From NCBI RefSeq assembly GCF_003259225.1, contig NZ_QHJF01000011.1, forward strand, positions 1-64,000: DNA of 64,000 bases. Direction: 5' to 3'. The notes below the pieces were generated by a model. That model ran no database searches. It saw nothing but the letters and a program-made list of their open reading frames with translations, and had not been told where the DNA came from. Below are positions 27,523 through 29,074 of the stretch, piece after piece. A program made the position numbers and the translations under genes. How positions within the stretch are numbered: the first letter of the stretch is position 1; the number at the start of each line of letters is the position of its first letter. Source of the stretch: Marinomonas arctica. Its GTDB lineage: Bacteria > Pseudomonadota > Gammaproteobacteria > Pseudomonadales > Marinomonadaceae.

Positions 27523-28332
27523 ATGTTGGATAACGACTATTCATTACCGATATCATTTTCAATGGCAGCCAAGATCGGCTTAGAGGAAACGGTATTGCTG
27601 ACTTTTTTGAAGCAGCAAGCGTACCTAGTCAGCTCCCATGTTTTACGAGTTGAAATGAGTCGACTGAGTGCCCAGTTGCCATTTTGGACTGTGCCGATGC
27701 TGATGCGTTTATTGGCGAACTTGCAAATCAGTCAGCTGTTGAGTTTTCAGCGCCAAGAGGAAATATTGGAGATTCATTTGTCCTCACCTCAAAAAGTCGC
27801 TCAAACCGTGATGCCAGCGGCGCCAATAGCAGAAAAAGACGACCCATTAATGAATAAAATGGACCGTTTACACAGGGCGGCTCGAGAAAAAAGCGAAGAG
27901 TTCACGCCGCAACCTAAAAGCTATCCACCAAAGCAGCCAGCTCGGCAATATGATGCTCCGTCTTCTCCGCCCGTGGTGAACGATCGTCGCGGTGTCACGG
28001 ATTTTGATTTGTATTTGGAGCAAAAAGAGCGTGCTCGACAACCAGACCAATGGCAACCTGAAGAAGCCACGTTAGAGCAAATTGGGCAGGCCGGTATTGC
28101 CCGTGAATTTGCTTTGTCGTTACAGACTGAATTTTTGTTAAGAATCAAAGAACAGCGCAAAAATGTTCGAACTTGGAACAGTGAATTTTTTAAATACGTA
28201 AAACGTCAGTGGCAATACAAACAATCGGATCGGTCTTCATATGAAGGAACCTCAGACAGTACAAAATTTACTAAAACCTCTCGAGAACAAGTTAGTGACG
28301 CCCTCAACAACATCCACGACACAGACTGGTGA
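27523..28332 (+). CDS. DnaT/lambda-O-like replication protein (possible DopC)
   Basis: 269 residues in three parts. A helical N-terminal domain (about 1-90) with winged-helix character contains SMAAKIGLEETVLLTFLKQQ, like the N-termini of phage replication-initiation proteins. A Pro/Gln-rich linker spans about 95-150. A C-terminal DnaT-like domain (about 160-235) contains WQPEEATLEQIGQAGI, FLLRIKEQRK, TWNSEFFKYVKRQW. It overlaps the next gene, a lambda-P-like protein, by 92 bases. A domesticated lambda-O/lambda-P-derived pair has been described in the literature as dopC/dopE, to my memory; identity with that pair is inferred. The role is probably in loading the replicative helicase. Confidence 0.72.
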   Translation: MLDNDYSLPISFSMAAKIGLEETVLLTFLKQQAYLVSSHVLRVEMSRLSAQLPFWTVPMLMRLLANLQISQLLSFQRQEEILEIHLSSPQKVAQTVMPAAPIAEKDDPLMNKMDRLHRAAREKSEEFTPQPKSYPPKQPARQYDAPSSPPVVNDRRGVTDFDLYLEQKERARQPDQWQPEEATLEQIGQAGIAREFALSLQTEFLLRIKEQRKNVRTWNSEFFKYVKRQWQYKQSDRSSYEGTSDSTKFTKTSREQVSDALNNIHDTDW

Positions 28333-29074
28333 GTACGGTTCGGGCGCTTATGCTAATAGTGGCCACACGGCGCGCGAATCAGGTCCAACAGAGGCAGAAC
28401 AGCAAACCCGAGTGTTAGTGAACATGTTGTTTGCACGCTTTAAGGCAATTTACACTCATAAATTTGCTTCTGCTTACAGCACCACAGACGAGGTGAAGTT
28501 GGCAAAGCGCGAATGGGCTATTGCCTTAAAAGGCTTTCAAGAGCCCTTGTTGGCGTATGCGGTAGAACGGACAAAAGAAGTTCACTCTTGGCCACCGACC
28601 ATCGCGGATTTTTTAAAGCTGATTAATACGGCTTATAAAGCGTATGGTTTAGTCGATCCTCGTTCTGCGTACCTTGAAGCCTGTGCTTGTCGCACTGATC
28701 CGTTACAATATAAATGGAGCCACCCTGCGGTTTTTTTTGCTGGTTCAGAGGTGGGCTGGTACAAAATCAAATCTGAAGAAGAGCGCATTAGTTGGCCGCT
28801 CTTTGAGCAAAGTTATTTGAAGGTGGTTGATCGTGTGATTGCTGGGGAGCGCCTAGTGGTGCCAAAAGTCATTATGATTGAAAATCAGCAACCACTTGCC
28901 GTGAAGGATTTGGCCAGTAAAATTGCTAAGGTTTTGTCTGTCGATGAAGCGCAAATCGCGCCTTTGCTGTATTACACGCAAAAAACGTATGGATCTGGTG
29001 TACGTAATCGTTATCGTGACATCAGTCAGAAAAAGCTGTTAGAAATGGGCTATACAGAAAAGTTGCCAGAATAA
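28241..29074 (+). CDS. Lambda replication protein P-like helicase loader (possible DopE)
   Basis: 277 residues. After a Ser/Thr/Gly-rich N-terminal stretch, the region from about residue 55 to 220 follows the lambda P pattern: LVNMLFARFKAIYTHKFAS, KLAKREWAIALKGF, SWPPTIADFLKLI, SYLKVVDRVIAGERLVVP. Lambda P binds DnaB and delivers it to the origin. The region upstream of MLFARF is not conserved, so the true start could be a later codon; the ATG at 28241 overlaps the upstream frame by 92 bases. No phage genes surround it and it sits beside uvrY-uvrC, implying a domesticated chromosomal gene. The last 50 residues are unrecognised. Confidence 0.75.
   Translation: MKEPQTVQNLLKPLENKLVTPSTTSTTQTGEYGSGAYANSGHTARESGPTEAEQQTRVLVNMLFARFKAIYTHKFASAYSTTDEVKLAKREWAIALKGFQEPLLAYAVERTKEVHSWPPTIADFLKLINTAYKAYGLVDPRSAYLEACACRTDPLQYKWSHPAVFFAGSEVGWYKIKSEEERISWPLFEQSYLKVVDRVIAGERLVVPKVIMIENQQPLAVKDLASKIAKVLSVDEAQIAPLLYYTQKTYGSGVRNRYRDISQKKLLEMGYTEKLPE

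Follow-up and report, generated by a model that had tools for sequence, protein, structure and literature searches.

A chromosomal dopC/dopE pair of phage origin as the probable replicative-helicase loading system of Marinomonas arctica

The window analysed here, a stretch of 64,000 nucleotides of the Marinomonas arctica contig NZ_QHJF01000011.1, carries two overlapping genes, dopC and dopE, whose parts are listed in Table 1. The initial annotation had placed two open reading frames with a 92-base overlap at this site, beside uvrY-uvrC and free of phage genes. Both frames and their overlap are confirmed, with products of 269 and 277 aa. The neighbours are housekeeping genes (TusBCD/TusE-like, YccA-like, hpf with an S30AE domain, uvrY, uvrC and pgsA-like), and no phage genes were seen adjoining the pair. 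Pfam matches support hpf, uvrY and uvrC; the names tus, yccA and pgsA were read from the ORF sequences.

Table 1. Features of the dopC/dopE locus, in coordinates of the window
Feature	Position	Strand	Description
dopC	27523..28332	+	269 aa; a winged helix joined by a disordered linker to a single DnaT domain, followed by the C-terminal H-D-T-D-W tail; initiator/assistant protein
DopC winged-helix domain (predicted), aa 12-86	27556..27780	+	AlphaFold pLDDT about 83-94 by blocks; weak Foldseek matches
DopC DnaT domain (PF17948), aa 175-235	28045..28230	+	Pfam 2e-9
dopE	28241..29074	+	277 aa; lambda-P-family protein, probable helicase loader
dopC/dopE dual-coding overlap	28241..28332	+	92 nt
Invariant 16 nt	28315..28330	+	HDTDW in the dopC frame, TTQTG in the dopE frame
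DopE N-terminal helical domain, aa 55-126	28403..28618	+	Fold of SPP1 G39P (1no1) and the lambda P N-domain
DopE Phage_lambda_P homology region, aa 59-205	28415..28855	+	PF06992; 9oa1_Z Z 11.2 over 160 residues
DopE C-terminal three-helix module, aa 211-277	28871..29071	+	Exceeds the C-terminus of lambda P in length; characteristic of clade I DopE

Gene order and overlap are kept across the named Marinomonas and Maribrevibacterium loci examined (L073-L098, some of whose contigs stop short of the outermost genes), with the exception of L088. At that locus (L088:6001-6835, Marinomonas rhodophyticola KJ51-3) dopE lies in two frames with small length differences from the window, reflecting either an assembly error or a real disruption. 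A search with a DopE profile, A1, found the gene in 11 of 11 genus members sampled. By the gene-order comparison and this genome sample, the pair is fixed in the lineage and lies outside prophages. In two genomes (G058 and G110) some 1.08 Mb separates the pair from the putative dnaA, which gives no positional link to oriC.

Of 26 Marinomonas-group sequences compared, 25 have an overlap of exactly 92 nt and one has an overlap of 95 nt. Across the 25 sequences that share the 92-nt length, third positions of the dopC frame are variable at 15 of 31 sites within the overlap versus 55 of 60 upstream (Fisher p=8e-6), and those of the dopE frame at 17 of 30 versus 57 of 60 in the core (p=2e-5). This reduction indicates that both reading frames are constrained and, together with the conserved length, that the overlap is not a product of chance. 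Near its end, the 16-nt run at 28315-28330 is invariant in all 25 sequences, and within the overlap the tryptophan codon of DopC forces a glycine in DopE.

The second protein had been described as lambda-P-like, and lambda P is indeed its clear best PDB match, both in sequence profile and in fold. DopE matches Phage_lambda_P (PF06992, 4.6e-8; Pfam) and PHROG 109, 'P-like helicase loader' (1.9e-23), while profile A1, built from 20 DopE proteins, retrieves lambda P (E=1.2e-7) and SPP1 G39P (1no1, E=0.0016) from the PDB. Its AlphaFold2 model is all-helical with a mean pLDDT of 84, and the best Foldseek match of this model is lambda P in the DnaB-lambda P complex (9oa1), with probability 1.00 and E 1.1e-3; the TM-scores are low, perhaps because the domains are differently placed. 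VIA-align superposes DopE residues 47-210 on lambda P (9oa1_Z) with Z 11.2 over 160 residues, and residues 55-126 on G39P (1no1) with Z 8.8 and an rmsd of 1.6 over 67 residues. No AAA+ domain is matched in DopE by Pfam, which sets it apart from the AAA+ loaders DnaC and DnaI and agrees with its lambda-P-like helical model. DopE thus shares sequence profile and fold with lambda P, and differs from it in being chromosomal, in length (277 versus 233 aa), in its longer C-terminal three-helix module and in its N-terminal 50 residues, which are predicted to be disordered and bear the motif encoded in the overlap.

Residues 103-233 of lambda P are sufficient for DnaB binding, and one helix of lambda P is placed alongside the linker helix of the neighbouring DnaB subunit (PMC6391071). 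DopE proteins form two clades with different C-termini: in profile comparison the end of clade II aligns to the lambda P C-terminus, whereas clade I, which includes the DopE of the window, ends in the longer module. A helix clearly corresponding to the C-terminal one of lambda P is lacking in clade I, which counts against reading its members as loaders.

The first protein had been called DnaT/lambda-O-like, of which the DnaT part is borne out. DopC matches the Pfam DnaT family (PF17948, 2e-9, aa 175-235), a domain shared with E. coli DnaT, and yields no Pfam match to Phage_rep_O (PF04492, lambda O) at E<=1, so that 'DnaT-type initiator' is the better name. Its AlphaFold model (mean pLDDT 74) comprises a winged helix, a linker, one DnaT domain and the tail. 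The N-domain has weak Foldseek matches to ArsR/HxlR/MarR winged helices, resembles the N-terminal winged helix of phage O-like initiators and could be a diverged relative of the Phage_rep_O domain. Iterons like those of oriLambda were sought in dopC, and only chance repeats, no iteron array, were found. Relatives of DopC carry one to three DnaT domains, some representatives lacking the N-domain, and a search of phage records with DopC returned no match.

The most constant part of DopC is its end. The pattern [DN]-x-[DSN]-W occurs at or near the C-terminus in 72 of 73 named loci and in 34 of 34 order representatives (31 scored by script; L253, L274 and L277/L030 by reading the correct upstream ORF), against a background of about 6% of all ORFs, DopC proteins included, with this pattern in their last 30 residues. 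The sole exception, Marinobacterium alkalitolerans (L140:5106-6693), has a DopC ending in TNTDDF and an altered DopE motif as well. The Aliamphritea locus (L124) has no overlap; its DopC retains DTDW and its DopE is without the motif, and some phage initiators beside P-like genes carry a similar tail with an overlap of 4 nt or none (L017, L170, L174 and L180). These cases disfavour the DopE N-terminal motif (T-x-T/A-G) as the conserved element and favour the DopC tail. The tail is probably a docking peptide, whose partner is perhaps DopE. Where the phage P-like genes are more distant (L202-L244), the initiators upstream of them often have another recurrent ending, for example TIIDI or IDMGVIDA.

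The initial annotation had made the role of the pair depend on a genome lacking dnaC and dciA, and profile searches find it so. In this 4.45-Mb genome, of estimated completeness 100% and with one dnaB copy, no dciA was found by Pfam or by A2, a profile of 11 order-specific DciA sequences that detects DciA in 86 other genomes. A search for the IstB/DnaC family, covering dnaC and dnaI, returns only ORFs of 551 and 816 aa, whose lengths and matched regions fit DnaA and Lon, respectively. Absence of this kind has been noted before: a 2016 paper listed Cellvibrionales, most Thiotrichales and three Oceanospirillales without dciA and dnaC/I (PMC5109545).

A census of the order, a sample of 245 genomes at a completeness threshold of at least 90%, places this absence in a wider pattern. 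DopE only was found in 154 genomes, DciA only in 85, both in three and neither in three; the P-like loader was thus detected in 157 by A1, and DciA in 88, comprising 86 by A2 and two by Pfam. A six-frame census with PF06992 missed the window's own dopE and was therefore dropped in favour of A1. The same failure implies that profile searches might overlook a dciA that had diverged strongly, although A2 found DciA in almost all of the genomes sampled from the DciA families. Among the genomes with both loaders, the P-like protein of G054 (L019) falls in a phage clade and the P matches of G130 and G209 are weak (3e-8 and 9e-15). Those with neither are one member of a DopE family in 350 contigs (G078) and two of DciA families (G176 and G206). 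Apart from the three 'both' matches, the split by family is clean. DopCE and DciA, unrelated in sequence and found in different genomes, thus appear to fill the same role and niche across the order. Elsewhere in the class A1 gave few matches, mostly with prophage-like scores. Overlapping dopC-dopE genes with W tails also occur beyond the order in two reduced genomes of about 1.2-1.3 Mb (G411 and G503; L281 and L282), and no DciA or full-length DnaC-type match was detected in either.

The exclusion of DciA does not stem from one inherited event. In an rpoB-rpoC tree the DopE families are intermixed with DciA families, and their grouping as one clade is rejected (AU p=0.0032, 139.9 log units), which makes repeated displacement of DciA probable. 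The DopE label changes at least three times, by gain or loss, on well-supported branches. The tree groups families f2, f7 and f31 with the DciA family f19, taxonomic names having been presumptively matched to these genomes by us. This grouping resembles a published clade of Endozoicomonadaceae, Zooshikella and Pseudomonadaceae (PMC7498684). In the DopE tree the chromosomal proteins form two supported clades with phage P proteins between them; their monophyly relative to phage P proteins is not rejected (AU p=0.24), and DopE alone therefore fits one or two phage sources. One P-like protein from a 'viral' contig (L171) lies inside chromosomal clade II, and the contig is possibly a misassigned bacterial one.

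Phage relatives of the whole pair are also found. The initiator of L020 combines an HTH and a DnaT domain, ends in TDTDW and overlaps P by 71 nt, and DnaT domains occur in the phage initiators of L020, L165 and L198. Genes for a repressor and a Q-like antiterminator surround an O/P-like pair in a lambdoid prophage (L278), which genome G205 carries in addition to a resident dopE elsewhere. Such relatives are what would be expected if the pair in the window were itself a prophage remnant or cargo without host function. This reading is scarcely credible, given the constraint on both overlap frames, the presence of the gene in every genus member sampled and throughout the DopE families, and the housekeeping neighbours.

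Two further explanations grant the pair a host function of another kind. DnaT is a replication restart factor in E. coli, in which DnaC serves both routes. Since DopC holds the only DnaT domain above the cut-off in this genome, the pair might mainly serve PriA-dependent restart in the manner of DnaT-DnaC, with DnaB loaded at oriC by other means. The dual service of E. coli DnaC makes a restart-only role unlikely, as does the near-perfect exchange with DciA, which suggests that the whole loader role is taken over, and no other loader was found by the searches above. DopE might also inhibit or regulate DnaB while another, unrecognised protein acts as the primary loader, for the lethality of lambda P to E. 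coli is ascribed to sequestration of DnaB (PMC3640518, PMC4926192). The failure of the same searches to reveal that loader bears on this idea too, and mutual exclusion with DciA implies replacement rather than regulation; an inhibitory role is accordingly very improbable.

The evidence instead points with good confidence to a resident DopC/DopE system, derived from phage, that took over replicative-helicase loading from DciA. Brezellec et al. in 2017 are said to have described a chromosomal lambda-P-like loader with a partner derived from a phage initiator in bacteria devoid of dciA and dnaC/dnaI, and the pair in the window fits this description. The initial annotation had invoked this proposal correctly: PMC13326638 lists DopE among the loader families, citing Brezellec et al. 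2017 (Genome Biol Evol 9:1561, evx111). The assignment was made by features and loader absence. No experimental demonstration of DopCE function was found in the literature searched. The overlap, the tail, the DopE subtypes and the repeated displacement may be new relative to the literature compared, which excludes the 2017 text.

Loading by this pair can most plausibly be envisaged as follows. DnaA would open oriC, and DopC would use its winged helix and DnaT domain to bind the melted DNA. DopE would hold the DnaB hexamer by its lambda-P-like C-terminal half and open the ring without an ATPase activity of its own. Brought to DopC, it would then deposit DnaB on the single strands. A system acting in this way would be essential to the organism. 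It is possible, though we lean against it, that DciA gave way to a phage replication cassette on several independent occasions within one order while DopC and DopE stayed tied by the near-universal [DN]-x-[DSN]-W peptide encoded inside dopE. If so, a single stretch of DNA encodes a docking peptide and, in the other frame, the beginning of the protein that it probably binds.

Helicase loading is indispensable for replication in bacteria, and DopCE would represent a third solution to it besides DciA and DnaC/DnaI. The pair in M. arctica is ordinary for its clade, and DopCE is among the least-tested helicase-loading systems. Marinomonas is cultivable and its dopC/dopE pair compact.
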